DNA of 64,000 nucleotides from Diadema setosum. Lineage: Eukaryota; Echinodermata; Echinoidea; Diadematoida; Diadematidae. The notes under the pieces were generated by a model. It was given only the letters and a program-made list of their open reading frames with translations, searched no databases and was not told the origin of the DNA. The DNA lies in NCBI RefSeq assembly GCF_964275005.1, contig NC_092693.1, positions 22,090,835 through 22,154,834 on the forward strand, given 5' to 3'. The translations under genes were made by a program, and so were the position numbers. Below are positions 4,027-56,969 of this stretch, piece after piece. Every line of letters begins with the position of its first letter. Positions within the stretch are counted from its first letter, which is position 1.

Positions 4027-4375
4027 CAGGGGCGGATCTAGCTTTTTATAAAGGAGGGGGTTGGGGCGGTATGCGAGAGAGCGTAGCGACCGAGCCCGAG
4101 CGAGCGGAGCGAGCGAGGGGGGGGGGGGAGGGTGGTGTCCCCCCTCCCTTTTTTTTTTGAAAATCTGTGTGTGAAAATGGCGTTTTCTTGCATCAAAAAC
4201 ACCACTATTTTTGGTATAGAGGTCATTGCCATAAATAGAAAAAAAAAATACAATTACAAGTTAAAAAAAAAAATAAGATTAAAGAAAAAATGGTCCCCGG
4301 ATTTTTTTTTTTTTTTTTTTTTGGGGGGGGGGTTGCAACCCCCCCCCCCCCACCCCCCCTCTAGATCCGCTTCTG
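4027..4375. mobile_element. hAT-type MITE, about 350 bp
   Basis: The ends are inverted: CAGGGGCGGATCTAG at the left and CTAGATCCGCTTCTG at the right. The flanking 8-mers match at 6 of 8 positions and sit in a TTG-rich repeat, so the duplication is probably eroded. Inside are GAGCGGAGCGAGCG-type repeats, a G/C-run pair and a T21/G10 junction. No coding capacity for a transposase; frames across it are low-complexity artefacts. Confidence 0.75.
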
Positions 4376-4525
4376 GCTGTTGTTGTTGTTCTTCTTCTTC
4401 TTACGGTTCTTGTTCTTGCTCTTTTTCTTATTCTTGTTGTTGTTCTTCTTCTTCTTCTTACGGTTCTTGTTCTAGTTCTTATATTCTTTTTCTTATTGTT
4501 GTTGCTGTTCCTCTTCTACTTCCCG
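4376..4525. repeat. TTG/TTC-rich imperfect tandem repeat
   Basis: About two and a half imperfect copies of a TTG-TTC-rich unit of roughly 60 bp, each with a TTACGGTTCTTG segment. It abuts the MITE on its right. Reading frames through it are poly-Ser/Cys and not credible. Confidence 0.7.
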
Positions 4526-5558
4526 AGTCCTTTATCTATACTTACCCGTGTATATGGGTGTGTCATTCATCTGCCCAGCTTCGCGGAAATTGCGAGGGTT
4601 TGCCGGGGAAACGGCCCCTTGCTTACTCGTTGATAATAATAAAAAACAATGATGTGTGATTAAAAAGACAACATTTTGCAACATTTTTCTTCAATGACAT
4701 GCACCCGATAGATTTGACTATAGGGTAAATGGAAGACGCTTTACCAAAGAATCTACTAAAAACTGAGGGGAGTATTTGGGGGGGGGGGAGTACAACATTC
4801 AGTCTTCAAAAGTTGTACACGGTCTTCTGACGTCAGACGTTATCTTCTGATGTATCGTGAAAAACTGAACTCCTTGAAAAAGGAAAATAAGGGAGCAAAA
4901 ATGCTCTGTGATGAAGATTGTACCACCGACTGAGGGAGGAGAAAGGGTTTGTGTGTTTGAGAAGAGAGAGGGTTATAGGCCTGGACTCTTGACAGTTCTT
5001 TAAGCGTTTTCCCCTGGTTGTGACCTCAAAATATTAGTGATTACAACTGTCACAGTGCTAGTGACTGGAGTCCTCGCTTTGACGAAAGAAAATGATGGCC
5101 TTGGCTTGTCCTTGTTATTACAGTATTCACCGCAAAGGTGCATGTTAGCGGTCATGGAAAGTCCATCGGAACCGTCTGCTATTTCGCTTCCACCACACAC
5201 TTGTCCGAGCTCGGAGATGGTAATGCGATATGAACTGCGTTCAACGGCTGGAACGATGAATAGGGCCTACTACTGACTTGGTTTGCGGTCAGTGGTCTTC
5301 ATCCCACCCTGGTATTCCAACAATCACAACCAGTTTTCCTATTTTGTTGTGCCACCAAAATTTCAGTCGTGTACATGGGCCATTGGTATTAAAAGAGCGA
5401 GTGGCAGAGTTTCAGATCAAAATCACATTTTAAATGTGAAATATAAAGCATGTAGCCTATGCATTATTTTCATGCAGTAGTGATCTGGGGAAAATAAAGT
5501 GGAGAAGACCGGATGTGGTGTCGTTGTGCACTGAAATTATCGACACGAAAGAATTTTC
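4526..5558. other. Non-coding stretch with one doubtful coding-like patch
   Basis: No gene can be supported. Between about 5000 and 5276 both strands stay open for 66-79 codons with mixed composition, which could be the relic of a coding fragment, but no domain is recognisable. The rest looks like ordinary intergenic DNA. Confidence 0.4.
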
Positions 5559-5624
5559 GTACTTCTGATTGGGTCGTTCTACCGCAAAGCGGTACTTCTG
5601 ATTGGGTCGTTCTACCGCAAAGTG
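5559..5624. repeat. 33-bp tandem duplication
   Basis: Two adjacent 33-bp units beginning GTACTTCTGATTGGG differ by one base (GCG versus GTG at the end). This is a recent local duplication. Confidence 0.9.
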
Positions 5625-6360
5625 GTGACCTTTTCAAGGGGGATTCGAAAAAAGAAGTGGCTTAATATGGCTCACAGTTCAACTTTGCAACATGTTCAAG
5701 TAAGTTTTATTGTGAGTGAAGAATCCATTCAGACTCACAGAACAAAAGAAGCTTCATTAAAAAAAGCTTTAAAAAAAGAACAAAAAAAGTTATGGGACAT
5801 TCACATTCCACATCTTTTATGAAACAGCAAAAGAAGTTTATGTTTATTGGATCAAACCAATACCGCACGTACTGGAGAAGGTGAAGATCTCACCCTCATC
5901 CCATCCTTCCGTATTGCCAGCTGATTGCAGCTTTTCATTCTTCTTCGACATTCTAATCGGGCAGTATTTATATCCTTCGCATTACTGACTGCAGTCTTGC
6001 AACCCGGACTTGCAACAACCAAGGAGGTGACCTGCAACATCCATCAGGTGCCTCTAGGTGCACAAGGGGTTGCAAGGGGTTTATAGATTATGAACTATAA
6101 CTATGATTTGTATGATATTGTCGTGTATAGGATGATTATATGATATTCAAAAATAATGATATCGCCTTTTCTAATTATTGCGTGTGATCGAAACCAATAC
6201 CTGCACTGTCCACACGCGTGTGAAACTTTCAAGTTTCATAACCTCTTGAAATCATGTCCGGGTTTTGATGAAACTGCTATTATTCTGCTCATTTGACTTG
6301 GCCCAGTTATTGAGGTCAACGTGAAACATTTCAAGCATTTGAAAATAAACCAAAAGTGAC
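5625..6360. other. No gene seen
   Basis: AT-rich sequence with A-runs near 5760-5790. No motif or frame worth annotating. Confidence 0.5.
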
Positions 6361-6513
6361 TGTTCATTCAAGTAATGACCTGACGAGCAACTGGTGATCA
6401 ATTCTTATGCTGAATTATGAAAATTATGATAAGTATAGCACATCAGAACTGATCACCAGTCGCACGTAAGTTGTTCATAACTTTACGAACAGCTTTATGA
6501 AACGGGGCCCAGG
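6361..6513. repeat. Inverted-repeat fragment, probable MITE remnant
   Basis: AACTGGTGATCAATTCT (about 6391) is the imperfect inverse of AGAACTGATCACCAGTCGC (about 6445). The right end reads TTTATGAAACGGGGCCC. The left terminus is not clear, so this is recorded as a partial element. Confidence 0.45.
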
Positions 6514-6862
6514 TCTCTTATTTCTCTGAATATGCCGATACTCTGAGCTGAAATTGACACAACACGAGTATAATTATGCTTGTCCTTCGGAGAATAATTT
6601 TGGAAAGAGGGCTAGCAAAAGACGGCTGGCATCTGGGGCTTGACCTTCTTACCTCGTAGTTCGTATGTTTGCACATGAGAAAGTAATGAACGCGTGAAAT
6701 CTCCAACTATAATGTGTACGGAGGAGGCTGTCAGTGCTGTAAGGTTCACATTCATGCAACTCTCAATTGCAATTAACCCACCGTCGTCACCCATAAATAA
6801 TTATGCATGGTATACAATACATACAAACAGGCATATACATATATTTCCATGTTTGTTTGTAA

Positions 6863-6904
<42 letters not shown>

Positions 6905-8806
6905 CCATGACAACCATTGACTCTTGAACATGACCATCGTTCGATTTTGATTCGATTTTAAAGAAGAATAAGTCCCTACAATGTTATCATTTATATAGAT
7001 GCAACATAAATGATTCTACATGCTTACTTTGTTTAATAACAGGCAAAAGCGACTGCCAGTATTGTAAAATTACTCTTTCATATCCATGTTTTGTTTTCAT
7101 GACTTCATCTAATTGCAAGAAAATTGCGTCAGAGCAAGATGCTTTGATCTCTGATAGTGTCTACGTTATACCTATAAGCGCTTATTCGCAATGTTGGATT
7201 GTAGATTGTGAATGTTTAATCACACATTTCATTTGTTTTGAGTCAGATATTGCCTAGAAAACAACACAGCACAATCTGAAAGGACCCATCAGCACAAAAA
7301 TAAGATTCAACGCAATACAATATAATATTAACACACGGGATAAGACATTTAAAAAAATCTATTATCTAGAAAACACTTCCTTATGTGCATAGTGAGACTT
7401 TGGTTTATTATTTCATTGAAGATGCATATGTAAGTCTCACGCGCCCCACCTATATTCGGCATTGACCGCTCGCGTTTTCTAAAGGATACTATCTATTTTC
7501 GTTGGTGGAAGTAATTTCTTACGACTGTTTAAGCCGACACTAATATTTACATAGCTATGCTTTCATAACTGGTCCCGCTAAAAACATTCCCTCAGGGGTA
7601 ATAAGGAAAGACGGCCAAAACATAACGAAGGCAAGATAGAACAAAAAAAAAAGAGGAGATTCCCGGGAAATTGAATTTAACAGCGACATATCCCTGATAG
7701 TGCCAATCATCCGGTGAGTCTTCCAAGCAATATATGATTATTAGCTCTGTGTTTGTCTTGCTGCTATATGTGTTGATTGTTTTTCTTTTATTCCTTTCTC
7801 TTTCTTAGTAACCATTAGAATATGACCATCGGTAGTGGATGAAATTGCAAGGCAGTCTTTTTCCATGAGCGTTCTTCTTTACTGATTATTCTATTGTTTG
7901 GTACTTTTCTCTGACAACATTTAAAGTGATTTGTACGAGTATGTTCTATTTTCCTCTTAATTGTCACTCTGGATATGCATTGCTTTCCTGCCTGATGGCT
8001 ATATTTCATGTTCTATTTTCCATTTTCCTCCCCTTTTCCTTATGTCCCATGTCTTTCTTGGTATTCTTATAATCATGTATTAGTCCATGTTCACCTCCTC
8101 CTCAATATCAATTTGCATCAAATTCTGTATTAGTCTCAGTCTTTGTCCTTGATGGTCCTGTCCCTACTTTTGTTGCTGTGTCTGCAGCTCTCATAATTCC
8201 GTATGCATCGTGTTACTGCATTTTACAATCATTTATTTATGAGGGCGCAAAAAGTTTCTTACCTCTAGAGCTATGCCCCAACACGATTTGTAAAGTCATC
8301 GTAGTGTTATTTGTACTTATGTAGACTTGTTTGCTGAAACCTTAAATTCGTTAATCCCTCTTGCAAACAGAACAATGATTGTTGTAATAGGCTGGTATCT
8401 TGCAGAAGTAAGTAATTCAGACCTTTCCTTAGAATGATAAAAACTGAAATTTCTTTGTTACGGCTCAAGGTGGAATTAATATTATCACTTTGCAATTAAT
8501 AAAACGGACTCCGAAAAAATCCAGTCATTATTTTCGGTACAAAAAGGAAGCGTATTCTCGAGTAACATGGGGTTAGCTTTCATTTCTTAAGAAAAAAAAA
8601 GAAAAAGAAAAACCCTGAGGTGTTTTACTATAAAATTCCATTCACGGTGTTGAGAGGCATTTTTCTTCAGAGTGCAAAATTTCATGAAGTTTACAAAAGG
8701 AATAAACAACCTTTGAAATAACAAATATACGAAACCGGTATGTTGAAGAACGGTTGTGATATTTTGGAGATCATTCTACCAATCAAAGCAAAATGCCTTT
8801 ATACGT
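6514..8806. repeat. Non-coding, with (TG)n at 6862-6901
   Basis: No gene seen. A (TG)n microsatellite of about 20 units lies at 6862-6901, directly followed by unique sequence. The remainder is AT-rich, with short frames only. Confidence 0.6.
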
Positions 8807-8862
8807 CTGTCTGTCTGTTTGTTTGTTTGTTTGTTTGTTTGTTTGTTTGTTTGTTTGTTTGT
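8807..8862. repeat. (GTTT)n microsatellite
   Basis: About a dozen consecutive GTTT units follow a short GTCT run. Confidence 0.95.
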
Positions 8863-10136
8863 TTTCAGAATTTAAACCATATCCATAACTTTCATTTGCC
8901 TTGCTGCAAATAAAATGCATGACAGATCCCATAACAAAATGTGAATAGGAAAAAAAAATGTTTGCAGATGGTGAGAAGATATGACATTCACTGATTCTGT
9001 TTGTCTTTTCTTAAGGCTACAAACATCAACTTCAAATTTCTTGACTCTCATACAACTCTGATTTTAACTCAGAATTCTCTGAAAAGGATGTTTGTGTGGT
9101 ATCGTCAAAATACTGTACCACTTCCGCTTTGTGATATCCCATCAGAGTTACTCATCCCAAAACAAGAGCATGTAAACTTGCAAAGACAGCACGGGATTAC
9201 TGCGAGGATCATGTTTTACCTATTCAAAAACAAACATAAAAAATAATATTCTATATAGCCTGTCTTAGTCTCTGCAGGCAGTTTTAGTCTATTATTCTTT
9301 AAAGAAAGTTCTCTTGACTATTTGTCCCAAAGAAGTTACATTCGAACAATGAAACAACAAACATTCCATGAGATGCATACATGTCTGATTGATAACATGA
9401 AACTGTAATCATCAAATTTTACAAGTAAACTGTTTTTGATAAAGTGCGTACCTAAATTTCGTTTAAATTGTCCTCCCCCCCCCCACACACACACACACAC
9501 CATGGAGGGTTGTCAAGCAAACTAATTGACAGTTATATTGATAATCACTCTGCACAATTTACTAAATAGATATGTCATCAGCATCATCACAATCATCCAT
9601 TTAACATTATAGCCATTATCAATCTCTCAATCAGTACACTTATCATTAGCCTTTGTTTATTCATCTTTTCGTTTATCATTCGAGAATAAATTCACTATCC
9701 TTTAAGTCATATATACAGCAGTCTTTGCATTCATTCAGTCTAAAAAGTTAACATGCCGGACCAACAGGAAGAGTGTATGCTCCTTATTTAGGTTACACCA
9801 TTACACCTTGAAAGCGCGGCAAGAAACACCGATTGGTGGCACACTTGAGATTGTCAATAATTTTGGGTCATTTGTGATACGTGATGTGGGTGGGTTCGGC
9901 AAACACTAAGTCTTTACGGATTTGCAATTTCATTCCCTATCGGAGGTGCTATACACATAACTCCATGGCTACACCAAGGAGCTACTATAGCCATAATGGA
10001 GCTACAATCAGCTGACAGTGGTTATAACAGTTTGAAATCTGCAACACGAAAGGAGCATATACACACCAGATGCTGCAAACAATGTTCCTGCACAGAACAA
10101 CAAAAATAAATCAAAACAAACAAACACAAAAGCTGT
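8863..10136. other. No gene seen
   Basis: AT-rich sequence. A short C-run and (CA)n lie at 9474-9500. No supported coding or RNA feature. Confidence 0.5.
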
Positions 10137-10357
10137 TAGTACACCAGATAGGACCCTCTAGGACCCCGTAGACAATTATCATACCCCTTACCCCGACCCT
10201 AATCCTTATCATGAGCCTAATCCTAATCCTAACCCATATTCTAACCCCTAACCTAACCCTAAATTTTACTCTAACACTATCACTTACTCTAACTCATACT
10301 TATACTTGAGGTAAAATTGTCGGGGGGGGGGGGTAATTGTCCTGATAGGGTTGAAAC
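10137..10357. repeat. CCTAA-rich repeat with inverted ends
   Basis: Degenerate CCTAA/CCCTAA units fill about 10195-10300. The block is bounded by AGACAATTA on the left and TAATTGTCC (after a G13 run) on the right, which are imperfect inverses. It looks like a small mobile element with an internal telomere-like array rather than a true interstitial telomere. Confidence 0.45.
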
Positions 10358-10595
10358 CACCGATCTTGGTTAAACCAGCTGTATATCTGACGTTGGTGGC
10401 GCGAGACAATCTTGCTTGCTGCATGTCTGGTATTCATGTCACTCCGTCAGGACGCGCGTATGTCGAAAAGGCAGTGGTGTCAGACGACCGTGAGACGCGG
10501 TGGGAGAAGAGTCACTTTGATCGAGCTGGTGGTTGGAAGCATGGAGATAGCGGTGTGAACAATTAGTGTTAAGCGCTGATCTCATTTTCTTTCTC

Positions 10596-10607
10596 TATAT
10601 ATAAATA
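10596..10607 (+). promoter_or_regulatory. Candidate TATA box for the GPCR gene
   Basis: TATATATAAATA lies about 380 bp before the receptor ATG, just after a patch of higher GC (10350-10560). If used, transcription would begin near 10630. Several upstream ATGs lie between, so an unseen 5' UTR intron or another start is possible. Confidence 0.3.
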
Positions 10608-10977
10608 CATCGGAACAGTGGTCTCATGGAATGATTTAGTGTGAAGACATGGTCAGCTACATGTCATTCGCAGTTTTTCTCTGGCGCTTTTGGTTTGCTA
10701 CGCCTAGAAAAGTCTGAGTTGAAAATGCTCTGATGAAGCGTGATTTTCTATATTTTTCTCATTCCATCATCGTCTTCATGTGTTGCAAAGTTAAGATTTC
10801 AAAGAAAAAAATTCAATCAATAATAACGATTTCTTAATCAATGGCGTGCAGCTATGTGACATCGACGACGGCAGACGACAATTTGATTGATGTTGAACAC
10901 AGCGTAATAGGGAAACCTCAATATCTATTTTTGTAACTTATTTTGATACATTCTGAAGTCATCGCGACTCGTCCGCA

Positions 10978-11998
10978 ATGAATGCTTCACTCGTCACTGT
11001 TGCTCAGGACGAATGGCAAGCCTACGAGAGTCCTCTGCACTACTCCGAGCGGATATTCCTCGCGACCGTCTCGGCGCTGGTCTCCGTGGTCGGACTATTC
11101 GGCAACGGCATGGTTATCCTCGCCGTCGCGCTCTCACGGAAACTCCGCACAGCCACCAACGTGTACGTGGTCAACCTCAGTGTCGCCGACATGTTGACGT
11201 GTCTGCTGATGCCTTTCCATGTCATGGCCGTCCTCAGCACGCATACGTATCCGATCACGGAGTGGACGTGCTCGGTCGCGGCTGCCTCGAGTATCATCTC
11301 GTCCGGATGTAGCATATACTCGCTGGCCGCCATCGCTCTCAACCGGCTATTCCTCGTCACGCAGCCCACCCACCGCTACCGCAGTTTTTACCGGACTCGG
11401 AATCTGGTACTAACCACACTCCTCACATGGACCGTCCCAACCGTCTTTACCATCGGACCGCCATTGGCCTCCATTGGCGACGTCGGTTTCGACGAGAAAT
11501 ACACTCGCTGTGGTCCGAAACACACGGAGAACGCCAGTATCTATGACATGACTCTGGCAACCATCTTCTACCCAGGCCCGCTCGTTATCATCGTCGTCTG
11601 CTACGCTAAGCTGTTTGCTTACGTCCGTCGTCACACGAAGACTATGGCGGCCATGGAGGCATCATCCTCTTCGTACACGCCAAAGTCCCCCACCAAGTCG
11701 GCTCCCGTCACGATATCGCCGCCCGTCTCCCCGACACCGGAGTCGGCCCTCAAGGCGAAGAGCTACTTCCAGGATCTGAACAGGCGACACACGAGGCAGC
11801 ACTTCAGTCGGCGCCAGATGGAGATCACGAGAAATCTCTTCTACGTGGTCATCGCCTTTTTCCTGTGCCTTACACCCTACAGCGTGTCGCTCATGATCCC
11901 GGGGTCCGACCACATTGTGCCTTACGCTGGAGCCATCTACCTCTTGGGAAGCTGTGTCAACCCTTTCATCTACGCGTCCAAACATCCTCACTTCAAAG
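10978..11998 (+). CDS. Class A GPCR, exon 1 (N-terminus through TM7)
   Basis: Seven-helix rhodopsin-class receptor in the plasma membrane, expected to signal through G proteins. Exon 1 encodes residues 1-340 plus one base. Landmarks: N43 in GNGMVIL (TM1), D71 in LSVADM (TM2), C98 and C178 for the extracellular disulphide, N122-R123-L124 in place of DRY, P201 in TM5, CLTP at 297-300 in place of CWxP (TM6), and NPFIY at 328-332 (TM7). N2 and N185 are N-glycosylation sites. The third inner loop (about 217-284) is long and rich in S/T-P and basic residues. The exon ends AAAG/GTAAGT, phase 1, just after TM7. The pattern resembles melatonin/Tre1/moody-like receptors, but the ligand cannot be read. 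The exon is much richer in GC than its surroundings. If the intron is retained, the frame runs to 12108. Confidence 0.93.
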
Positions 11999-12129
11999 GT
12001 AAGTCCAAGATAGATTTCTTCGTAAAATTCTTAAGCGCTATTAGATACCATACACATGCAAATCATCATTCACTGTTTATTACAGGATACGTACAAACAT
12101 GCGCGTAATTATTCATATAATTAAGATTA

Positions 12130-12701
12130 TTAAAGGACAAGTTCACCTTCATAAACATAAGGATTGAGAGAATGCAGCAATATTAGTAGAACACATCAGT
12201 GAAAGTTTGAGGAAAATTGGACAATTGATGCAAAAGTTATGAATTTTTTAAATTTTTGTGTTGGAACCGCTGGATGAGGAGACTACTAAGGCTCGTGGTG
12301 TCATAATTATGAGTACAACAGTATAAAGAAAATATGAAGAAAATTCAACACATTTTCACTTTTTTTCGCATAATAAAAGAGCACTTGACTTTCCTCTTTC
12401 TAAAGGCAGGGGGAATAATATTACCCATAACATATGTCAGTAACAAGTCGAGGGAATGTGTACTTTTTTCAAAAGATGAAATTTTGTGAAATTCTCTTTA
12501 TATTTTCCTTATATTGTTGTACGCATGTGACATCATACACTGCAGTAGTCTTCTCATCCAGCAGTGACTGCACAAAAACTTCAAAAATTCATAACTTTTG
12601 AACGGATTGTCCGATTTTCCTCAAACTTTCAAAGATTTGTTCTACTAATATTGCTACATTCTCTCAATACTTATGTTAATGAAGGTGAACTTGTCGTTTA
12701 A
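12130..12701. mobile_element. Long-TIR MITE flanked by TTAA (family K2)
   Basis: Arms of about 110 bp at the two ends are inverse copies. The left begins TTAAAGGACAAGTTCACC; the right ends GGTGAACTTGTCGTTTAA. TTAA at both edges fits a Kolobok- or piggyBac-type target. There is no transposase frame. Partial relatives occur at 23719 and 37428. Confidence 0.8.
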
Positions 12702-12938
12702 GATTTGTACACATAATTACATAGGTATACATGGCAGTAGCCTATAGACATGATAGATATACGAGTACACTCCGGCATTTCGAATTGTCTGGTGTGGGTA
12801 GTTGGCGGATAAGAAGCAGTCGTATAGAAAAGAAAATAGGATAATATCCAGTCATACATCCCCATACGTTTAGCACCTGATGTTCAGCAGGTGCAATGTA
12901 GATACAATTGCCAATCGGAATGTCCTTCCATGTCAACG

Positions 12939-13909: not shown

Positions 13910-15583
13910 CAGTGGCGTATCTAGGGAAAACGGCGCCCGGGGCAAGCACGAAAATTGCGCCCCGAATTTCTGAAAAAGTGTTCAACCCCAACCCCATCCC
14001 GGTAGGGACTTTAAACAAAGTCCACATGATGCTTTTTCAAGCACTTAAAAGGGATCTTTTGAGGGTGATTTAAATGTAATGAATTGGGTTAGATTTTGGC
14101 GAGCGAGCGCAGCGAGCGAGCCGAAATTTTTGTATTTCAGCTTACAAAACATGGAATTCTTGTCATTTTTTGCTTACCAAATCTTACAATTTTAATCAAG
14201 ATATAGTGACAGCCTTATAGATATCGATTTATACCAAAAAAACTGAGGACTTTAAAAAATACTCTAAATTAGTGCGCGCGAGTGAGCTGAAATTTGTAAA
14301 TGTCCTCGTCATCATCACGTATTGTTCTTTTTTTTTATACAAATTTTGGCGAGCGAGCGCAGCGAGCGAGCCGAAAATTTTCGTATTTCAGCTTACAAAA
14401 CATGGAATTCTTGTCATTTTTTGATTATTAAATCTCACAATATTATAGTGACGACCTTATAGATAACGATTTATACCAACAAACTGAGGACTTGAAAAAA
14501 TACTCTAAATTAGTACGAGCGAGTGAGCCGAAATTTGTATATTTCTGCGTCATCATTACGTTTTTTTCTTATCTTTTTTGATTTTTTTGCGCCCCCCTCC
14601 CCCGTATGTTCGAAACCGCTTTTGATCCAATTGGCGATCGCTTCAGAACGAATGAAATTGCAGTCGCTGCTCCGTGTAACATTTTGCCTGCTAAATATAA
14701 AATGACATGAGTGAACACAATAGACATTATCATTTTGTCCGCGTCATCGTCACGTTTTGTTCTTATCTTCTTCTCTTTTTTACAAATTTTGGCGAGCGAG
14801 CGCAGCGAGCGAGCCGAAAATTTTTGTATTTCAGCTTACAAATCATGAAACTCTTTTCATTTTTTGCTTATTAAATCTTACAATTCTAATCAAGATATAG
14901 TGACGGCCTTATAGATAATGATTTATACCAACAAACTGAGGACTTGAAAAAAAATACTCTAAATTAGTACGAGCGAGTGAGCCGAAATTTGTATATTTCC
15001 GCGTCATCCTTGCATTTTGTTCTTATCTTGTTTGATTTGTTGTTGTTTTTTTGCGCCCCCCCCCCGTATGTTCGAAACCGTTGACGCCCTCTTTTGATTC
15101 AATTGGCGATCGCTTCAGAACGAATGAAATTGCAGCCGCTGCTCCGTGAAACATTTTGCCTGCTAAATATAAAATGACAATGTGTGAACACAATAGACAC
15201 TGTCATTTTGTCATCATCACGTTTTGTTCTTATACCTTCTTTTTTATATAAATTTTGGCGAGCGAGCGCAGCGAGCGAGCCGAAAATTGTTATATTTCAG
15301 CTCACAGAACATGGAATTTTTGTGTGAACACAATAAACATTGTCATTTTGTCCGCGTCATCATCATGTTTTGTTTTTATCTTGTTTGATTTGGTTTTCTG
15401 CCCCCCCCCCCACCATTCTCCCTCCCCCTTTTTCTTCTTTTTTTTTTCTTCTTCTTCTTCTTCTTCGGTTTTTTTTCTTTTTTTTTTCTTCTTCTTCTCT
15501 TTTTTTTTTCGTTTTTTTTGCGCCCCCAAGGAGTGGCGCCCGGGGCACGTGCCCCCCTTGCCCCCCCCCTAGATACGCCACTG
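13910..15583 (+). mobile_element. Non-autonomous hAT-like element, copy 1
   Basis: TIRs CAGTGGCGTATCTAGGG and its inverse at the right. An exact 8-bp target duplication GTAGAGAG lies at 13902-13909 and 15584-15591, as expected for hAT. The body is a tandem array of units of about 445-465 bp (the first is shorter) carrying GAGCGCAGCGAGC blocks at 14099, 14349, 14792 and 15258. G/C and T-rich runs lie near the right end. There is no transposase frame. An inverted relative lies at 54329-56039. Confidence 0.92.
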
Positions 15584-16260: not shown

Positions 16261-16269
16261 AGGATCCAT

Positions 16270-21953: not shown

Positions 21954-23589
21954 CAAGGGCGCCGGAAGCGGGGGGGGGGGGGGGGGGGGGGGGCAGGGGT
22001 GGCACTTGCCCCCCCCCCCCCCCGAAACAAAATGTTGGGGGGGAGGGGGCAAAACGAGTTTTTGCCCCCCCCCCCCCCACAAAGTGCCCCCTGTAACAAA
22101 TAATTAATCACTGATTTAAAGACCAAAATGAACAATAAAGGCATATTTCTTGTCTAAATGTTGTAATTTCATAACTGAATATCCAAAAATTTTCGCCCCT
22201 CACGGGGCGAAGATTATAATACACTAACAACATACATTATTGTATCTATACACTAATACATGTAGTAACTTATGAGTAAATTTAGTGTATAAATGGTAGC
22301 CTCGTGTCCTCGAGTGTGCCCGCTGAAACATACCTTTAGTAAACCTTACACATTTCATTTTCTTCTTTGCTTTCTAGCAGTATAAGAATATTTTTTATTG
22401 TTCGAACGATGCGATCACGTTTAAGCTTTTAATGAGTACATTTCAGATATATTGCAAAGTAAAAGTGGCTCGCTCGTTCTGCCCGTACTTATAGTAAAAT
22501 GAAAAGTTTTCATAAGTTATTATCATAGTCCTTTGCAGTGATTTCTTTTACTATGTTTAATTCCTCAGAAATTTAATTTGAAATGCTCTATAAAAGCGAT
22601 TTTTATACTCTGTTTTACAAAAAATCCCTACCGTGGGAGGGGGTATCCCCCTCCCACACCCTCCCCGCTCGGTCGCTTCGCTCCTTGACGAGGATCTCAC
22701 ACCATCACATAATATACCCCCGTATGTTAAGATCATAGTCCTTCCAACTGATTTTTTCAATATGTTAATTCCCTAGAAATTTGCTTTTAAATGTTCTATA
22801 AACGCGACTTATATACTCTGTGTTTACAAAAAGACCCTAACGTGGGAGGGGGTATCCCCCTCCCACACCCTCCCCCATTCGGTCGCTTCGCTCCCTCGAC
22901 GAGGATCTCACACCATCACATAATATACCCCCGTAAGATCATAGTCCTTCCAACTGATTTTTTCAATATGTTAATTCCCTAGAAATTTGCTTTTAAATGT
23001 TCTATAAACGCGACTTTTATATTCTGTTTTTACAAAAAGTCCCTACCGTGGGACCTCGCCGAGGACCTCGCACCATCACAATTTTAATGTACTCCCGTAT
23101 GTTATGATCATGGTTCCTTCCAACTGATTTTTTCAATATGTTAATTCCCTAGAATTTGTTTTAAATTCTCTATAAACGCGACTTTTATACTCTGTTTTTA
23201 CAAAAAGTCCCTACCGTGGGAGGGGGTATCCCCCTCCCACACCCTCCCCCCGCTCGGTCGCTTCGCTCCCTCGCCGAGGATCTCACACAATCACTTTTAT
23301 GTACTCGACCGTATGTAATAATCATAGTCCTTCGCTCTGATTATTTTTCACTATGTTTAATTCCTTAGAAATTTGCTTTTAAATGGTATATAAACGCGAC
23401 TTTTGTACCCTGTTTTACAAAAGCTCCCTACAGTGGAGGGGGGGGGGGGGATCCCCCTTTCCACCCCCACCCCCCCCCCCCCCCCCCGCTCACTCGCTTC
23501 GCTACCGCGTCGAGGATCTCACATCGTCACATAATGTGCCCCCGTTGAGATTTTGCCCCCTCAAAACCAGAAGTGTTCCGGCGCGCTTG
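21954..23589. mobile_element. Non-autonomous hAT-like element, second family
   Basis: Inverted ends CAAGGGCGCCGGAA and TTCCGGCGCGCTTG. An exact 8-bp duplication AATGCAAC lies at 21946-21953 and 23590-23597. The left part has very long G- and C-runs (about 21970-22080). The body is about five tandem units of roughly 200-215 bp, each with GTGGGAGGGGG-TAT-CCCCCTCCCAC palindromes and a GGTCGCTTCGCTCC block. No transposase. Confidence 0.88.
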
Positions 23590-33401: not shown

Positions 33402-33853
33402 TTAAACGGGATGGTTAGTAACTGATCATTGGGAATCAGTGGGAATGCTGGGAGATGATTTTCCAATTCTTGTGGGATTCATTGAAGAGTACATTATAAA
33501 TCTATTGTTGTGTGAAAATTATTTGCTTCAGAATGGTCTCATATTCAAGTAATGTGCAGTTTAATGGTTCCAGGCTAGCATGCCTGTACAGTTCCTTGTG
33601 TGAAAATTATTTGCTTCAGAACAGTCTCATATTCAAGTAATGTGCAGTTTAATGCCCCGTCACTGTACAGGCATGCTAGCCTGGAACCATTAAACTGCAC
33701 ATTACTCGAGTATGAGACCATTCTGAAGCATATAATTTTCACACAACAATAGATTTATAATGTACTCTTAAATGAATCCCACAAGAATTGGAACAATCAT
33801 CCTTCAGCATTCCCACTGATTCCCACTGATCAGTTACTAGCCATCCCCTTTAA
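33402..33853. mobile_element. Foldback MITE with ~190-bp arms, TTAA edges
   Basis: The left edge TTAAACGGGATGGTTAGTAA and the right edge TTACTAGCCATCCCCTTTAA are inverses. The arms stay highly similar through CAGTGGGAATGCTG and GTGCAGTTTAATG. A segment of the left arm (GTGTGAAAATTATTTGCTTC onward, 33511 and 33599) is duplicated in tandem. This is a young-looking near-perfect hairpin. Confidence 0.9.

Positions 33854-46285: not shown

Positions 46286-46289
<4 letters not shown>

Positions 46290-46336
<47 letters not shown>
46290..46336. repeat. (AG)n microsatellite
   Basis: About 23 AG units followed by purine-rich sequence up to 46378. Confidence 0.97.
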
Positions 46337-46340
<4 letters not shown>

Positions 46341-48558: not shown

Positions 48559-50612
48559 GTTAGGCAACAGGTCCTTACATAACTTAGCAGGTTATAGATT
48601 TTCATTCTACTGGGAGCAAGTATGCTATTTCCGTGTATCTTTTACGCTAACATGCACTGATATTATCAAAATTGACTTTATATCTGTGTGGAAAGATTAC
48701 TCACCATCAATTAATTTGTACAGTGAGAATGAGAAACAGGTACATGATGATACACCAGTGTCACTCTGACAGAATGAAAACAATAAAACAGAAAACCTAC
48801 CGTTTAATCACCTCTTCACAGCTCTGTAAAGTGACAAAGTTTTCATCTTAATGTCTTATACACGTCATGTATATGATATGTTGACTATATATTTTGATGA
48901 TGCATTTATATATGCATTTTTTTTTCTCATTTGTTTGATAGATTGAACATTGTCATCTTAATAATTTCATCTCGACATTGAGGCCTATGATTTTGGTTGG
49001 AAAAGCAGACAGCAGATAATTTCCTCCAGTTCTTTTCATGAAAACGAGCTGAACAAAAAACAAACATGGTTACTGATATCAAATAAAGAAAACGAGCCGT
49101 GCTGCTGAGTATTTTACTGCATCGGCGCTAGAAAGAGTATACGTCACGTAGAACAAGGTTTGATGCTGCGGTTCTGGTCTGATTCATCCCTTCATTTGCT
49201 TATTCATTAACCCCTCGCCATTGTGCCAAATTGATTGAAATGTGACTGATTTTATTTTTGCCTTTAATAAATAAAGTCAAAGGAGAAAAAACGCGCTTAT
49301 CACTATCTGGCAGCACTGGAAATGAAATAAAAAGCAGTCTGAATTCAATATCCATTGTGATAATCATCACGTCCACATCACAGGCACACATGCCAAGACA
49401 CGTCATCGACATCGTATTCATCCACTCAGGCGTAAAAGAATGAAAAAAAAAAACAGAAGTGACAGAATGCTAAACTTTGTATACCCCTCCTGGCTAAGTT
49501 TTCTTTCGTTGCTTCCTAACTGATAAAGTTACTCTTTTTAAATCAAGTTACATCAAATTTATCCAGCGATGGAGTCAAATCAAATTATTTAGTTATCTTT
49601 CAGGGCAACCATGTTAGATTTTATGATCGTCAAGTAGACACGAAGAATACATTTATATATTCAGTAATTTCAATGGTGACACACATTATCTCTGGTTTAT
49701 GGCAAGACAATATCTCTGGTTTATGGCAAGGGCAAGATGATTCTTTTGGCGGTAAATCACGAGTGGATTCCCGGAGTTGATCACAAGATTCCGACCCTGG
49801 ATCCCGACGGACCACGATGTGTGTCTGGTAAAAAACAAAACAAAAACAAAAAGAAAACCTCCAAAGCAAAAACATGTGAAAGTTTGTCTCGATGCCATGG
49901 CAGCGCGTGATTGGTCAGGATTGTCCTGTCTTCTTCACTTTGGCGGGACGCAGCTTCACTCATGTGACTCACCAATGTCATATAACAGATTATGTAGTTA
50001 CATAAATTCGATTCAGCGGTGCGACCAAGTTCATTCCGGGAGTTGTGCAGAAAACGTTAAAGGTCATTTTAATCTCTTCGGGGAATGATAGGTTTGACGT
50101 AAAGAGAAACGCGATTAAATGAAAGCAATACATCAGCCGAAGTTTTAGCTAATCGGACAACGGTTACTATATATCTCATGACTGATACGTTGCGACATTC
50201 AGATGTAAATTAATCATCTAATAATTATAATGTCCCGTGGACATTTTTCCCCTTTCGGTCTCTTTGCACACATTACTGTCCCTGAGTAAACGTCTTAATT
50301 ATTACGTTTGTGCTTTTTTCTAAGCGTACATCTTCTGGAAAGGCAAATGTTTTTCTTCGGGCTGATAGCAATGTCAGGCGTGTGAGCGATGTTGGGAACA
50401 AACAAACAACAAAAAAGAAGGTTCTCAGTTGTTCTCAATTGCCATCGGCTGAAACGCCATCCGTACACATGTCGTGAAATATACTTATACATACATAATG
50501 CATACATATTTACGACTACATTATACATACATACACATACACGCACACAAACCTACATATAGGCCTACATACATGCATACAAACAAGTTAAATCTACAAC
50601 TTCACTTTCTAG
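48559..50612 (+). other. CUB/LDLa gene intron 2
   Basis: 2.05 kb, AT-rich. It holds a frame at 49777-50088 without any domain and ACAT-type simple sequence near 50475-50580. No exon is supported. Confidence 0.55.
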
Positions 50613-50824
50613 GTACAGTATGGACAACACTGCCTGTACACACGCCAGCGTCACTTTTTTCGATGGGGACAGCACATCGTCTAGCCAGCTTGGTAGCACG
50701 CTATGCGGCACGGACAGACCAGCGCTGACTCTGTCTTCGGGGAGCAGCCTAACGATGCAAACCAAAGCGTCGGGATCCCAGAGCGTTGTCGACTTCCAAG
50801 CTGTCTTTACGGCATTTTCCGATG
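50613..50824 (+). CDS. CUB/LDLa membrane protein, exon 3 (second half of CUB)
   Basis: Completes the CUB domain (to about residue 178). The acceptor TTCACTTTCTAG and phase 2 entry give R108. The order follows the CUB plan: C116, then VTFFDGDSTSS (the usual xVYDG strand), LGSTLCG with C139, an SSGSSLTMQT strand and the closing VDFQAVFTAF strand. The exon ends GATG/GTAGTC in phase 1. The calcium-site aspartate of calcium-binding CUB domains is represented by D125. The binding partner is unknown. Confidence 0.9.
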
Positions 50825-51299
50825 GTAGTCACGTGATCATTTTCCATCCAATAATTGTTTTGATGATGATGCATGTGATGATATAAAGTACTGTTAATTG
50901 TGAAACCAAACCACTGACGCGTTGGGTATGAATGAACTGCGGAGTTATAGTGAAAATAAAATCGAAAGTTTTAGGAAAACGATGGAATATGTATCTTTGC
51001 CATGTTTGCATGAAAGCAGCAGTCTGAAAAGTATTGATAGCAATGATTTTCAGCGTTCATTGTTATTGAAAAATAGGGGATTCAAATGGGGTATCATCAC
51101 ACGATACTTCTAAAGAATAAGAATCTTATTTGTTTTAGTTGAGCCACAATTCACAAAAACAATATTGCAGTATACAGTATACCGTATTATGCTGCGTATC
51201 ATTCTAACGCTGTTCTGCGTCTCAGCTACCATCTTCTGACACACATTCCCTAGACTCACTACCCTTGTTGTTGTTGTGTGTTTTTTCTTTCTCATCTAG
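50825..51299 (+). other. CUB/LDLa gene intron 3
   Basis: 475 bp with GT-AG ends. Nothing notable inside. Confidence 0.75.
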
Positions 51300-51431
51300 A
51301 CACATCTTGCTCCTCGTTTACATGTACTACAACACGTCGATGCATCAACAGCGCAGTGACGTGCGACAACCAGGGAATCAGCAACTGCGGCAACGAAGAC
51401 TACAGCGACCAAACCGACGTCGACTGTCCAG
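51300..51431 (+). CDS. CUB/LDLa membrane protein, exon 4 (LDLa module)
   Basis: One LDL-receptor class A module fills this 132-base exon (residues 179-222). Six cysteines (182, 187, 193, 200, 208, 221) are spaced as in LDLa, with FTC, RRCI and CGNEDYSDQTDVDC motifs. The acidic cluster near C208-C221 is where these modules bind calcium. The exon is phase 1 on both sides, the classic form of a shuffled extracellular module. The acceptor is TTCTCATCTAG and the donor CCAG/GTATAG. Confidence 0.94.
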
Positions 51432-52615
51432 GTATAGCAGCGCCTCCGCCCATCATTTTGCAAGACAGACAGACAGACAGACAAAGAATGCAAGGCTGAA
51501 AATAAAACAAGTGTTGAAAATCTCCCTTAAATGAGTTTGAATAATATGATAAGACCAGACCACAAAATGTTGTTTAATCTGTAAATTAAGCCACGCATGC
51601 ATTTTGCCATTATCATAGCTATGAAAAGGTGTTCAAGCATTAATGCGTACATAGATACAGAAACTTTGACCCTGTGATAAACTGGAAACATGAAGAGGGT
51701 GGCGGCATGGACTTATATAGATGTGAAGTCTCAAATAAAAAGCTAGTTTAGAGACTAGAAAGAGATCGGTGAAGGAGATGAACACGCGAGTGAATAAAAT
51801 TGTCATTTTAGGTCAACGGATAAAGGGAGCAACAAGGAGAAGAGTGAAAGACTAGAGCGTCATGAAAGACGTCTTTTGACTTTTCGCAGAACAAAGATTT
51901 TTCTGTTTTACTTCTAGGGTGGTCCTTGAAGGGTTTGGTTGAGCATGTCGCTGCAAAATGTTCGAATACTAACTTGTCCAACATCCTCTGAAAGCCAGTA
52001 ACATATGCTATGAAACATCCCCGAGAGTTGGCAACATGCTTAAAATGGAATGTTATCGAACATGTCAAAAACTTGTGCAAAACTTGAGAAATATCAAAGG
52101 ACTTTTAAAATTTGTGCGCAAAACACGAGACTGAACATCGCAGGTAAGCAGCACAACGGGAATAATCTCTTTGGAATTGATTATGTCGCAAAATATTGCG
52201 CTCCCTCTCATGATATGCGCTCCATACACGCACATCCAACAATCTCCGCAATACACTGTCTTGTATACTCTCACATTCAGAGTTTGCAACATGCTCAAAA
52301 TGTCAAGTTCTCTACCACGCTGCTATGCTTCTCACATGGAGTGCATCTTATCATTGAAATATAAGATGGGATGAAGAGGATAAAGGAGGAGGCAAGGGAC
52401 TATGTGGGGATCATTTTGAGGTATACATTATTGTCATAATGACAATAAGAAGAAAACAGAGATGAGAAGAAATAAATTGTCATTTGGGACTGTTTTATAT
52501 GATTGATATTATCATAAAGATAATAGAAGAACGAAAAGCAGCTTCAAAGGCAAGGATCATGCATGAAGAAACACCAACTTTATGAATAACTATTTCTTTA
52601 TTTTTTACTCGGCAG
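51432..52615 (+). other. CUB/LDLa gene intron 4
   Basis: 1.18 kb with a short (CAGA)n at 51463-51481. No exon is supported. Confidence 0.65.
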
Positions 52616-52905
52616 TGATATACACGACCCCTGACCTTCGACCTTTGGTCTACGTGGCCGCTGTACTCGCCCTGCCCCTCCTCTTTCTCACCTACTGGTG
52701 CTGCTGGCGGCCGGGCTACCTGGTGTGGCTCTGTGGTTGTCTCCGACACCGGAGTTGCGGGGACTGCGGCTGGTTATGCCCGCTGCGATCCCGTGGGCTG
52801 TGTCGGCGGATTTGGACTTGCGACCGCGCCTCGAAGTCGAATTCAGTGTCAGATCTCAGACGTAGTCATGGTGGTGGTAGTCAGCGAGAAATCAAATTGG
52901 AATAA
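52616..52905 (+). CDS. CUB/LDLa membrane protein, exon 5 (TM helix and tail)
   Basis: The last coding exon, joined in phase 1 (V223). A short linker leads to one transmembrane helix (about 232-250: LVYVAAVLALPLLFLTYW), which predicts a type I membrane protein. The cytoplasmic tail (about 68 residues) begins with nine cysteines in 41 residues (251-291) among Arg and Trp, then a Ser/Arg-rich end and a TAA at 52903-52905. The tail has no recognised signalling domain; cysteines near the membrane are often lipid-modified. The CUB-LDLa-TM order recalls NETO and LRP12-type proteins, but with a single CUB and a single LDLa. GC content is far above the flanking DNA. Confidence 0.88.
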
Positions 52906-53175
52906 GTGGACAAATTTCATGGATAACTGGAGAGTTTATATCTCTTTCAGAATCACTTTCTTCAGCTTGTGGACATTGTTGTCGTCCTGTTTCACTTTTA
53001 TGTCTGTTGTATTAACAGTTTAAGCACTATTGTATTTGTATTGTCGATGCCCTACTTATGCGTTCCAGGCCCGTAGCCAGGGGGGGTGCGTCGGGTGCGT
53101 ACGCACCCCCCCAAATTCTGAAAGGTCCACTTTTTCATAATAACGGTTTTTAGCAATTCTCAAGATAACAATCCA

Positions 53176-53181
53176 AATAAA
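53176..53181 (+). terminator. Nearest polyadenylation signal after the CUB/LDLa stop
   Basis: AATAAA lies 271 bases after the stop codon. There is none between the stop and the transposon edge at 53067, so the gene may end its transcripts inside the element. Confidence 0.3.
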
Positions 53182-54328
53182 TATAAAGACACATTATTAT
53201 GCTACGTAAATGTGGAAGAGTACGTTTAACAATGTTAAAAATAATTGTACGAAACCCTTTTGTTGTATGAACCATCGGATCGTCCCCATGCACACAAACA
53301 CAAATGTTATGTATCAATTTGTGCGAGCTATTATTATATTGGCACTGCATGCCATGGCCCTTGGCGCGTGTGACCGGTGTTTTTTTTTTTTTCCACTGGC
53401 CGCCCGAGTACGTGCGATTCGTGGATGACATTGAGGTTGACACTTGCATTTTTTCACAGGAACAGAGGTAAGTGGATGAAAATCTAATAGCCTCAAGTTT
53501 ACGTATAATGTTTTTATTATGATAAGAATTAAAGAAATTTCCTCGAAATTATAACTATAATCGGAAACCTGAGACATTTTATATCTACGTCTCACAAAGA
53601 TATAGTACATGTATATAAGTACATGTTGGCATGATAATGCCTGGGGATAGATTATTATGTCAACTGTTTTCCATTATGAATGCATGCTCCAATCAAATTG
53701 TGAAATGGTGGTCATGAATTAGCATTTCTTACGAACGATCAGGAGAGACAAAATGAGTCGGATTGGATTACAATTCTCACTTACAGCTTTGTAGAAGTCT
53801 GAGTCAACAGTATCACACAGTACTTCAAGACGTATTACAGTACAAACGATTTCTTGAGCCTGCACCGTTTCAGGCTCTGTTCTGGATACAGCGGTAGAAA
53901 CTCATTCTTTTCTTTCTTTTTTATTTTATCATTATTTACCAATCTCTTTTCTAACTTACAGGTAGCGGATTTCTTTGCAGGCCAAATTCGGAAATGTAGT
54001 GTTGATTATTACTTATACATTTTCTCATGTTGTGACAGTTCTATTGGTTCTCATTTTTAAAGTGAGCCAAAACCTAAAAAAAATTTCACTTATAATTTCC
54101 AAAGAGTATTATGCAGGCACGCAAACTCATTTTAGTTGTATTTCATTTAAATGTAATGGGTAAGAGGGTATGAGAGAGAATGGAAAGTGCTGAGCTATGA
54201 AGTAAAATGGTAAAGTAAAAAGTTTGTCAGATAGTATTACAAAAGAAACTCATTCTTTTTTGTTTGTTTATTTTATCATTATTTACTTATCTCTCTTCTA
54301 ACTTAAAGGTAGTGGATCTCTTTGCAGC

Positions 54329-56039
54329 CAGTGGCGTATCTAGGGGGGGGGGGGCAAGGGGGGCACGTGCCCCGGGCGCCACTCCTTGGGGGCGCAAAAA
54401 AAACGAAAAAAAAAAAAAACGAAGAAGAAGAAGAAAAAAAGAAAAGAAAAAGAAGAAGAAGAAGAAGAAAAAAAAAAAAACTCGCCCGGAAGGGGGAGGG
54501 AGAATGGTAAGGGGGGGGGGGGGGGAGAAAACCAAATCAAACAAGATAAAAACAAAACATGATGATGACGCGGACAAAACGACAATGTTTATTGTGTTCA
54601 CACAAACATTCTATGTTCTGTGAGCTGAAATACAAAAATTTTCGGCTCGCTCGCTGCGCTCGCTCGCCAAAATTTGTATAAAAAAGAAGGTAAGAACAAA
54701 ACGTGATGATGACAAAATGGCAGTCTCTATTGTGTTCACACATGTCATTTTATATTTAGCAGGCAAAATGTTTCACGGAGCAGCGGCTGCAATTTCATTC
54801 CTTCTGAAGCGATCGCCCATTGGATCAAAAGAGGGCGTCAACGGTTTCGAACATACGGGGGGGGGGGCGCAAAAAAACAATAACAAATCAAACAAGATAA
54901 GAACAAAACGTAATGATGACGCGGAAATATACAAATTTTGGCTCACTCGCTCGTACTAATTTAGAGTATTTTTTCAAGTCCTCAGTTTGTTGGTATAAAT
55001 CGTTATCTATAAGGCCGTCACTATATTTTGATTAGAATTGTGAGATTTAATAAGCAAAAAATGACAAGAGTTTCATGATTTGTAAGCTGAAATACAAAAA
55101 TTTTCTGCTCGCTCGCTGCGCTCGCTCGCCAAAATTTGTTTAAAAAAAGAGAAGAAGATCAGAACAAAACGTGACGATGACGCGGACAAAATGATAATGT
55201 CTATTGTGTTCACTCATGTCATTTTATATTTAGCAGGAAAAATGTTACACGGAGCAGCGACTGCAATTTCATTCGTTCTGAAGCGATCGCCGATTGGATC
55301 AAAAGAGGACGCCAACGGTTTCGAACATACGGGGAAGGGGGGCGCAAGAAAAAAATAAAAAAAGATAAGAAAAAACAAAAACGTAATGATGACGCAGAAA
55401 TATACAAATTTCGGCTCACTCGCTCGTACTAATTTAGAGTATTTTTTCAAGTCCTCAGTTTGTTGGTAATAAATCGTTATCTATAAGGTCGTCACTATAA
55501 TTGTGAGATTTAATAAGCTAAAAATGACAAGAATTCCATGTTTTGTAAGCTGAAATACAAAAATTTTCGGCTCGCTCGCTGCGCTCGCTCGCCAAAATTT
55601 ATATAAAAAAAATATAAGAACAATACGTGATGATGACGAGGACATTTACAAATTTCAGCACACTCGCGCGCACTAATTTAGAGTACTTTTTTAAGTCCTC
55701 AGTTCTTTTGGTATAAATCGATATCTATAAGGCTGTCACTATATCTTGATTAGAATTGTAAGATTTGGTAAGCAAAAAATGACAAAAATTCCATGTTTTG
55801 TAAGCTGAAATACAAAAATTTTCGGCTCGCTCGCTGCGCTCGCTCGCCAAAATCTATCAAAATTCATTACATTTAAATCACCCTCAAAAAGATCCCTTTT
55901 AAGTGCTTGAAAAAGCATCATGCGGACTTTGTTTAAAGTCCCTACCGGGATGGGGTAGGGGTTGAACACTTTTTTTCAGAAATTAGGGGCGCAATTTTCG
56001 TGCTTGCCCCGGGCGCCGTTTTCCCTAGATACGCCACTG
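54329..56039 (-). mobile_element. Non-autonomous hAT-like element, copy 2 (inverted)
   Basis: Same family as 13910-15583 in the opposite direction: CAGTGGCGTATCTAGGG and its inverse at the ends. The exact 8-bp duplication TTTGCAGC lies at 54321-54328 and 56040-56047. Four GCTCGCTCGCTGCGC blocks (about 54642, 55109, 55570, 55825) mark tandem internal units. No transposase. Confidence 0.93.
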
Positions 56040-56969
56040 TTTGCAGCCCAATTCGAAAATGCCCAGAGACAGCTAGTAACCAAATAACCTACTATAATTT
56101 AATAGATAAGAAATAATCATTCCAGTATGTATCTTAGTGTGCACAGTAAGACAGATCAAATCAAATAGGAAAACATCTGAGCACTAAGCCTGAGGTCTGA
56201 ATTTGCACTCAACTTCTTCCAATGGCTAACGGATGTTTAATTTTTGAATTTCACTGACCTCCAAATTTCACAAAGAAAACCTTCTTAGCATGATGGTTAA
56301 TATGACATTTGACTGATATTGGAGATGTTTGCGAATCGGATCTACTACCTTTAATATTATTAATCTAAAATGATTATTTGAAAGTTCGGAAATGCTGGAA
56401 ATATCCTACCACAAGGAGGCAAAATATAAATGGTTCACATTTACAATTCATTTTGTTTTAAAAATTTTCTTATTTATTTTCGTTTTTGACAAACTCGCAT
56501 ACCAGGCTTCAGGCCTGCTAACGCGGGTAATACAATAGAAAAAATAAAAGTTAAAACAACACCAGGAAAATCACTATTCTCAATTTTGCGGCGCGCTACG
56601 CGCGCAGAGTCTCGAACACAATTATTAAACTTTGCAACTTCCTGGCAAAATGAGTTTTTACTATTTCCTAGATGAAATACCGTAACGCGATTGCATGCAA
56701 CAGACAAAAATACAAATTTCCTCGAGACTTTAAAACGTCATTAAAACAGTCAAAATTCACAATTTGCGGCGCGCTTCGCGCGCAAATTCTTATACAACTT
56801 TTGTAGTTCGGTCGTCCAAAGAAAAAAAAAAAAAATATATATATATATACATATAATAGCGTGTGTGTGTGTGTGTGTGTGTGTGTCATCATTGGTATTG
56901 GTACCGAAGGTCCGTTTTTTTAGTGACCGCACCCCCCCTTGAAAAATCCTGGCTACGGGCCTGCGTTCC

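Follow-up and report, generated by a model that had tools for sequence, protein, structure and literature searches.

A motif shared by inverted-end elements of Diadema setosum coincides with the top of a predicted G-N-A-loop DNA mini-hairpin whose design recurs in phage genomes

Why do transposon-like elements with different ends carry the same short internal motif? In the 64,000-nucleotide stretch of Diadema setosum DNA analysed here (contig NC_092693.1; hereafter the window), GAGCGNAGCGA has 13 exact matches on the two strands, compared with an expected mean of 0.03 and a largest count of 1 in 100 dinucleotide shuffles. This bears out the proposal of a preliminary description that an internal motif is common to families whose ends differ. 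Every exact match falls within an element bearing inverted ends: two in the element at 4027, four in that at 13910, three in that at 21954 (minus strand) and four in that at 54329 (minus strand). Because the 13910 and 54329 elements represent one family, the motif is present in three families, with a related form in the element at 53066. A possible likeness to the GAGC repeats of adeno-associated virus, considered early on, was dropped.

The best copies of the motif can be drawn as a hairpin, with a G-N-A triloop closed by GC above a stem built alternately of Watson-Crick dinucleotides and tandem G.A steps. The window contains 13 GC-closed GNA hairpins of at least six pairs, against a mean of 0.07 and a maximum of 1 in 60 shuffles; the shuffle counts thus rule out a chance origin for motif and hairpins alike. 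All 13 lie inside inverted-end elements, which span about 12% of the window. Among hairpins of at least eight pairs, 11 loops are GNA and none is of another type. Two G-C pairs beneath the loop were a condition of the 13-hairpin search, and the hairpins were also found by a search lacking that condition. DNA mini-hairpins of the d(GCGAAGC) class were reportedly described by Hirao, Yoshizawa and co-workers, and the rule for them derives from test-tube work with short oligonucleotides. As given in parts of PMC4686876, the recipe for a very stable DNA mini-hairpin is a GNA or GNNA loop on at least two G-C pairs, and GCGAAGC itself has a Tm of 78 °C. On its folding strand, each of the 13 window hairpins has such a G-N-A or G-N-N-A loop, and all four bases occur at loop position N across families.

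The short element at 4027–4375 (whole elements are given without strand) is hAT-like by its ends, the imperfect inverted repeats CAGGGGCGGATCTAG and CTAGATCCGCTTCTG; no clean target duplication was seen at its borders on inspection of the ends. It carries two plus-strand hairpins, GCGAGAGAGC-GTA-GCGACCGAGC at 4073–4095, with a single A.C mismatch that the other lacks, and CCCGAGCGAGC-GGA-GCGAGCGAGGG at 4095–4119, with 11 pairs and two tandem GA steps. The non-autonomous hAT-like element at 13910–15583 has identical inverted ends, CAGTGGCGTATCTA, and an 8-bp duplication, GTAGAGAG. Its four units contain the identical plus-strand hairpin GGCGAGCGAGC-GCA-GCGAGCGAGCC at 14098–14122, 14348–14372, 14791–14815 and 15257–15281. 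A second copy of this family lies in reverse orientation at 54329–56039, with the 8-bp duplication TTTGCAGC and 96.5% identity over 1667 aligned bases. The same hairpin is found on its minus strand at 54644–54668, 55569–55593 and 55824–55848, and, without the outermost pair, at 55107–55129. By reading, a GTCCCTACCG block is common to the 13910/54329 and 21954 elements.

The hAT-like element at 21954–23589 has imperfect ends, CAAGGGCGCCGGAA and TTCCGGCGCGCTTG, and the 8-bp duplication AATGCAAC. Two of its minus-strand hairpins have GG/CC replacing GC/GC in the stem, namely GAGGGAGC-GAA-GCGACCGA at 22879–22897 (8 pairs) and GCGAGGGAGC-GAA-GCGACCGAGC at 23252–23274 (10 pairs). The other two of the four motif-bearing units have stem mismatches, also on the minus strand: an A.C mismatch breaks the stem at 22662–22692 (core GAGCGAAGCGA at 22673–22683), and the stem of a degenerate unit at 23484–23510 (core TAGCGAAGCGA) is imperfect. 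The element at 53066–56963, within which the 54329–56039 element is nested, has perfect inverted ends, CAGGCCCGTAGCCAGG, and a 9-bp repeat, TGCGTTCCA, at its borders. It lacks the linear GAGCGNAGCGA string, and its GCGCGC blocks likewise carry GNA loops on stems of Watson-Crick pairs only. On the minus strand these read GCGCGC-GTA-GCGCGC at 56591–56605 and GCGCGC-GAA-GCGCGC at 56769–56783; the plus-strand readings are GCGCGC-TAC-GCGCGC and GCGCGC-TTC-GCGCGC. As a description covering the four elements, a GNA-loop hairpin serves better than a linear string for binding. As for assignment to hAT, short terminal inverted repeats are present, imperfect in the 4027 and 21954 elements, and an 8-bp target site duplication flanks the 13910, 54329 and 21954 elements, as opposed to 9 bp at 53066. 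No long open frame of the hAT transposase type stood out in the elements by eye, and a Pfam scan covered 645–3467 and 10957–12105.

The motif had also been described as repeated in each tandem unit, and proposed to be a subterminal or internal binding site kept by selection or spread by recombination. Its copies extend along the element bodies and are not confined to the end regions: the first hairpin of the 13910 element starts 188 bases from one end, the last stops 302 bases from the other, and two lie between. The 21954 element departs from the unit-by-unit pattern, since four units have the motif and a unit near 23040–23070 has, by reading, lost it. The expectation that the motif is more conserved than its neighbours holds in the 13910 element, where 25/25 motif columns are invariant among the four units compared with 45/90 in the surroundings (P = 5e-7), although the bases directly flanking the hairpin equal it in conservation. 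It does not hold in the 21954 element (13/18 versus 56/85, P = 0.41), an outcome that the preliminary description had itself named as refuting and that applies to this family. The similarity of the 4027 and 21954 elements exceeds the motif, with 58/87 aligned bases identical across a module, in keeping with an internal stretch that was exchanged between them or descends from a common source.

The same design is found in phage genomes. We scanned IMG/VR contigs with the arms held fixed and the loop left open, and the phage counts of this paragraph are among the matches listed. With GCGAGCGAGC-NNN-GCGAGCGAGC, 92 GNA sites were obtained in 88 stretches, and a single further stretch had another loop (AAA); after repeated flanks were collapsed, 58/59 sites were GNA. 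With GCGAGCGAGC-NNNN-GCGAGCGAGC, GNNA occupied 28/29 sites (19/20 distinct). The non-repetitive AC/GT stem CGAACGAGC-NNN-GCGAGTGAG gave GNA at 32/35 distinct sites. Covariation was assessed on 149 sites, drawn from loci fetched by a GCGA pattern and from a listing of at least 120 stretches; because the set mixes pattern-fetched loci with others, GC cases were excluded. Of the 57 sites with GC on neither side, 42 are fully complementary, compared with 8.3 after shuffling. A pyrimidine-GA-purine context, which favours sheared pairs in DNA, occurs on the 5' arm in 32 of these 42 covarying sites. The GNA strand is antisense to a nearby terminase gene in 47/53 cases, and, as a point against the hairpin reading, 44/93 sites lie within open frames 80 or more codons long, gene calls on these contigs being naive open frames.

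When phage loci were retrieved through the terminase gene instead of the motif, 19 hairpins were found among 80 of 599 relatives, all with GNA or GNNA loops and with pairs exchanged at inner, middle and outer positions of the stem; two other matches to the grammar among the same 80 had different loops. Inspection covered 70 of the 80, the other 10 being dropped because the match fell short of the gene start. In prokaryote genomes GNA occupied 36/81 distinct sites, indicating that the loop rule, although strong, does not hold everywhere. The hairpin grammar of the window, and the loop rule and stem covariation of phage DNA, are demonstrated at the level of sequence, and the comparison suggests that the shape of the fold, and not its exact letters, is what the families keep. 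The 13910 transposon end CAGTGGCGTATCTAGGG matches two stretches in viral contigs, both reading as phage-like DNA, and neither stretch has a GNA hairpin of at least six pairs.

On balance, we consider it somewhat more likely than not that the motif common to these families forms the top of a DNA mini-hairpin serving as a structural landmark in single-stranded DNA, with folding in the cell and function being what we infer. The opposite strand would present T-N-C loops and T.C mismatches and is therefore expected to fold much more weakly. When the duplex is unwound, by negative supercoiling, replication or transcription, the folding strand would snap into a compact hairpin that could mark the single strand in the manner of the phage N4 promoter hairpins. 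It would most likely act at replication or repair, where forks may stall or switch at it; such events could duplicate internal units in tandem and pass them between families. It is possible that a transposase or host protein binds the hairpin. A DNA nearest-neighbour model, which gives the window hairpins little credit and has no special bonus for the mini-hairpin type, recovers complete folding in three cases only, 4027 hairpin 2 (-2.0) and the two 53066 hairpins, whose two strands score alike (-8.3, -8.5).

Could the fold be read in RNA instead, with element transcripts forming the hairpin and a protein or nuclease recognizing it? RNA parameters do return full folds for the 13910 hairpin (-9.5), 4027 hairpin 2 (-9.4) and 21954 u3 (-7.1), with far weaker values for the complements (-5.3, -5.2 and -2.1), and phage stem wobbles lean to G.T over A.C (9 versus 2, among the matches listed), indicating that one strand folds, although this does not tell RNA from DNA. 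However, RNA would favour GNRA or UNCG loops, whereas the phage matches listed comprise 58 distinct GNA triloops against 19 distinct GNNA tetraloops, of which 6 are GNRA, so there is no RNA-type bias in the phage tetraloops. The antisense orientation to terminase and the 0 matches of an Rfam search of the window also speak against an RNA hairpin, which we regard as unlikely. Still less probable, at the bottom of our range, is that a (GCGA)n microsatellite degenerated and gained a single extra base, its symmetry being a by-product. The 13910 hairpin is indeed two GCGA units, one inserted base and two further units; a GCGA repeat is self-complementary if G.A steps are allowed, and control steps in the window score similarly (AG/AG 9, TC/TC 12 and CT/CT 9, versus GA/GA 11). 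Because such a repeat matches itself, pairing in the pure GCGA versions is not independent evidence. But a single random insertion predicts NGA and GAN loops too, against the 92 GNA and one other among the phage matches listed; the non-repetitive AC/GT phage stem obeys the same rule; and the GG/CC stems of the 21954 element and the GCGCGC blocks at 53066 are not GCGA repeats. For the phage set this explanation is strongly disfavoured, although the window data taken by themselves leave it some probability.

The module shared by the 4027 and 21954 elements, the GTCCCTACCG block and the lack of excess motif conservation in the 21954 element are what would be expected if one internal module had been inherited or exchanged among families with the hairpin as a passive passenger. 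Against this, the fold is kept while loops and stem letters vary between families, the 53066 stem is different, and the design is found in phages without these transposon ends; we regard mere passage as fairly unlikely. A linear, CpG-rich double-strand site for a transposase or a host zinc-finger protein would agree with the fully conserved motif columns of the 13910 element, and hAT enzymes work with subterminal repeats, according to sections of PMC4763223. Free variation at the N of the loop and compensated exchanges in the stem match the prediction of a fold instead, copies lie throughout the element body, and the 53066 element is without the linear string; we find such a site decidedly unlikely.

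The mini-hairpin reading has partial precedents. The window hairpins share the loop, the closing GC and the G-C pairs of the d(GCGAAGC) class (PMC4686876, in part), but their stems are lengthened by regular tandem G.A steps, they are arrayed in transposons, and their unusual stability is putative. For the N4 early promoter hairpins, used by the virion RNA polymerase, parts of PMC4496689 report that extrusion needs a loop-closing C:G pair plus the G and A of the loop, and that the template-strand hairpin alone resists single-strand probes. The three-base loop with G and A, the C:G closure and the predicted strand asymmetry are alike, as is the placement of the phage hairpins mostly on the strand antisense to terminase; the animal elements differ in having no known counterpart. 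Like hAT subterminal repeats, the motif is short and repeated in elements with 8-bp duplications; unlike them, it is body-wide, structured and common to families whose ends differ. The REP-type palindromes of bacteria are also small repeated hairpins in a mobile-DNA setting, but the window stem relies on G.A steps. Judged by titles, searches of an open-access library yielded no report of a GNA hairpin with a G.A-step stem, and no relevant title on the end sequences of the four elements or their motif.

More broadly, mobile DNA in general might use as a cis signal a GNA- or GNNA-capped hairpin whose stem alternates Watson-Crick and tandem G.A dinucleotides. Animal hAT-like arrays and the phage regions ahead of terminase would each have acquired or kept it, and proteins able to distinguish the stable strand from the unstable one, as N4 polymerase and SSB can, would read it as folded single-stranded DNA; we offer this as a speculation that is rather unlikely to hold. 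Searches restricted to Watson-Crick arms overlook these stems; in one survey, which took in 118,019 genomes, mismatch-free arms alone were counted (PMC13155455). If true, the close fit of natural sequences to the mini-hairpin rule, together with compensatory changes in their stems, would demonstrate its use by genomes, and transposons and phages could prove to hold a class of DNA signals that a pattern admitting G.A steps would bring to light.

The sequence GAGCG-N-AGCGA, reported in the preliminary description as common to different hAT-like families, has 13 matches in the window; the expectation from 100 shuffles is 0.03. The inverted-end elements of interest, named by their start positions, are the 4027 element (4027-4375), which is without a clean target duplication, the 13910 element (13910-15583) and the 21954 element (21954-23589), each flanked by an 8-bp target duplication, and the 53066 element (53066-56963), which has a 9-bp repeat and hosts the nested 54329 element (54329-56039; 8-bp target duplication). 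The 54329 element belongs to the 13910 family too and is 96.5% identical to the 13910 copy. Elsewhere in the window, an intact-looking LINE with a 941-codon open frame encoding endonuclease and reverse transcriptase domains was found at 645-3470, and a rhodopsin-type receptor frame of 383 codons lies in GC-richer DNA at 10957-12108. The reverse transcriptase and receptor frames suggest animal-like DNA.

Outward from the G-N-A, the window copies pair as GC, a tandem GA step, a Watson-Crick dinucleotide, a second GA step and a second Watson-Crick dinucleotide. The hairpin is GGCGAGCGAGC-GCA-GCGAGCGAGCC in the 13910 family (eight copies including those of 54329, the outermost pair being absent in one), CCCGAGCGAGC-GGA-GCGAGCGAGGG in 4027 and GCGAGGGAGC-GAA-GCGACCGAGC in 21954. 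The 53066 element, proposed as a fourth carrier, lacks the motif string but has the hairpins GCGCGC-GTA-GCGCGC and GCGCGC-GAA-GCGCGC on the minus strand. A search for GC-closed stems of at least six pairs around three-base loops, with 60 shuffles as the control, revealed 13 GNA hairpins (shuffled mean 0.07), all within inverted-end elements. Of the other matches, two are the 53066 hairpins seen from the complementary strand, and the rest come from a single site at 5580 that matched on both strands. With the minimum raised to eight pairs, the window had 11 GNA hairpins and no other loops (shuffled mean 0.02 GNA). The 21954 units also contain a second perfect palindrome, GTGGGAGGGGG-TAT-CCCCCTCCCAC, at 22633-22657, 22842-22866 and 23216-23240, which departs from the GNA rule. 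A short inverted-end element at 33430-33825, with perfect ends TGGGAATCAGTGGG and a 7-of-8 duplication, has no GNA hairpin.

Because the GCGA repeat pairs with itself under the G.A scheme, symmetry in the GCGA copies does not count as independent evidence of a hairpin, and the control steps AG/AG, TC/TC and CT/CT scored 9, 12 and 9 in the window against 11 for GA/GA. The informative features are the loop, in which all four bases occur at N while G and A are constant, the use of GG/CC in the 21954 stem, and the form seen in 53066. We therefore searched for the same design outside the window with the loop left free. In IMG/VR contigs, GCGAGCGAGC-GNA-GCGAGCGAGC was found at 92 sites in 88 stretches (N being A in 59, T in 15, C in 10 and G in 8), whereas the other 60 three-base loops gave one stretch, with AAA; with identical flanks collapsed, the counts were 58 and 1. 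Four-base loops occurred at 29 sites in 27 stretches, 28 of them GNNA, and only 6 of the 19 distinct GNNA loops were GNRA. GNA also filled the free loop at 32 of the 35 distinct sites whose arms were the non-repetitive CGAACGAGC and GCGAGTGAG, and at 27 of the 35 the next outer pair was complementary. These phage counts agree with the recipe for stable DNA mini-hairpins as summarized in PMC4686876, a GNA or GNNA loop over at least two G-C pairs. The rule is weaker in prokaryote genomes, where GNA accounted for 36 of the 81 distinct sites (chance expectation about 5); non-GNA loops are frequent there in Acidobacteria and Rhizobiales-type repeats. Same-arm repeats with other loops (L195, L208, L211, L181 and L203) include AAA loops within a longer palindrome in Rhizobiales-type genomes and GCC loops in an Acidobacteria genome.

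When the GA steps and the GNA loop were kept constant and the middle dinucleotides allowed to vary, the latter were fully complementary in 124 of 149 distinct sites among the matches listed (shuffled 54.7). Since this set is enriched for loci selected by their GCGA pattern, sites with GC on either side were left out; the fair figure, among the matches listed, is 42 of 57 against 8.3 shuffled. Single-pair departures were G.T in 9 and A.C in 2. Two-step hairpins following the grammar were also found in 20 of the 80 phage loci fetched via the terminase gene (the best 80 of 599 relatives). Of these hairpins, 19 had a GNA or GNNA loop and 2 further matches a different one; the 19 showed the swaps CC/GG (inner), AC/GT (middle) and CC/GG (outer).

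Hairpins of this type in IMG/VR loci L001-L089 and L258-L284 are concentrated upstream of the gene for the terminase large subunit. Among 53 hairpins (of 122 sites) in terminase-matched loci, 47 are antisense to terminase and 6 sense, and 41 of the 47 lie 97-517 bases before its start. Loci L285-L364 carry a further hairpin, in most cases 50-95 bases before terminase (70 of the 80 loci examined); it has a single tandem GA step, compensatory changes in the stem and loops that vary. In 43 of these 80, the terminase start is less than 1.2 kb from the upstream end of the contig, either because the assembly broke at hairpins or because the genome really ends there.

With RNA parameters, the GNA strand folded fully, and better than its complement, in three of four tested hairpins, the 53066 strands being equal; with DNA parameters the same result was obtained only for 4027 hairpin 2, and 53066 also folded, both strands alike. 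The loop statistics suggest DNA, as triloops dominate and four-base loops have no GNRA bias.

The proposal that the motif is kept by selection is supported for the 13910 family and unsupported for 21954. In the four units of the 13910 element, 25 of 25 hairpin columns were invariant, compared with 45 of 90 elsewhere (P 5e-7); across the eight units of both copies, 24 of 25 were invariant, with the adjacent left flank equally conserved. The aligned 21954 units showed no excess conservation (13 of 18 motif against 56 of 85 other columns, P 0.41).

The hairpin would fold as DNA once the duplex is unwound. In the account of phage N4 in PMC4496689, supercoiling extrudes hairpins that have loops of this kind; the loop G, the loop A and the closing pair are required, and the template-strand hairpin withstands SSB while that of the other strand is melted. 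For the transposons, we tentatively suggest that the hairpin most probably acts at the replication fork or during repair. Fork stalling or switching would duplicate internal units, with one hairpin per unit, and the same events would let modules move between families; around the hairpin, 4027 and 21954 have 58 of 87 bases in common. Any function of the hairpin in transposons is put forward with little confidence. The structural claim is moderately strong: an ordinary-looking, real motif follows a structural rule from oligonucleotide chemistry, and one hairpin grammar is kept across families despite differing letters.
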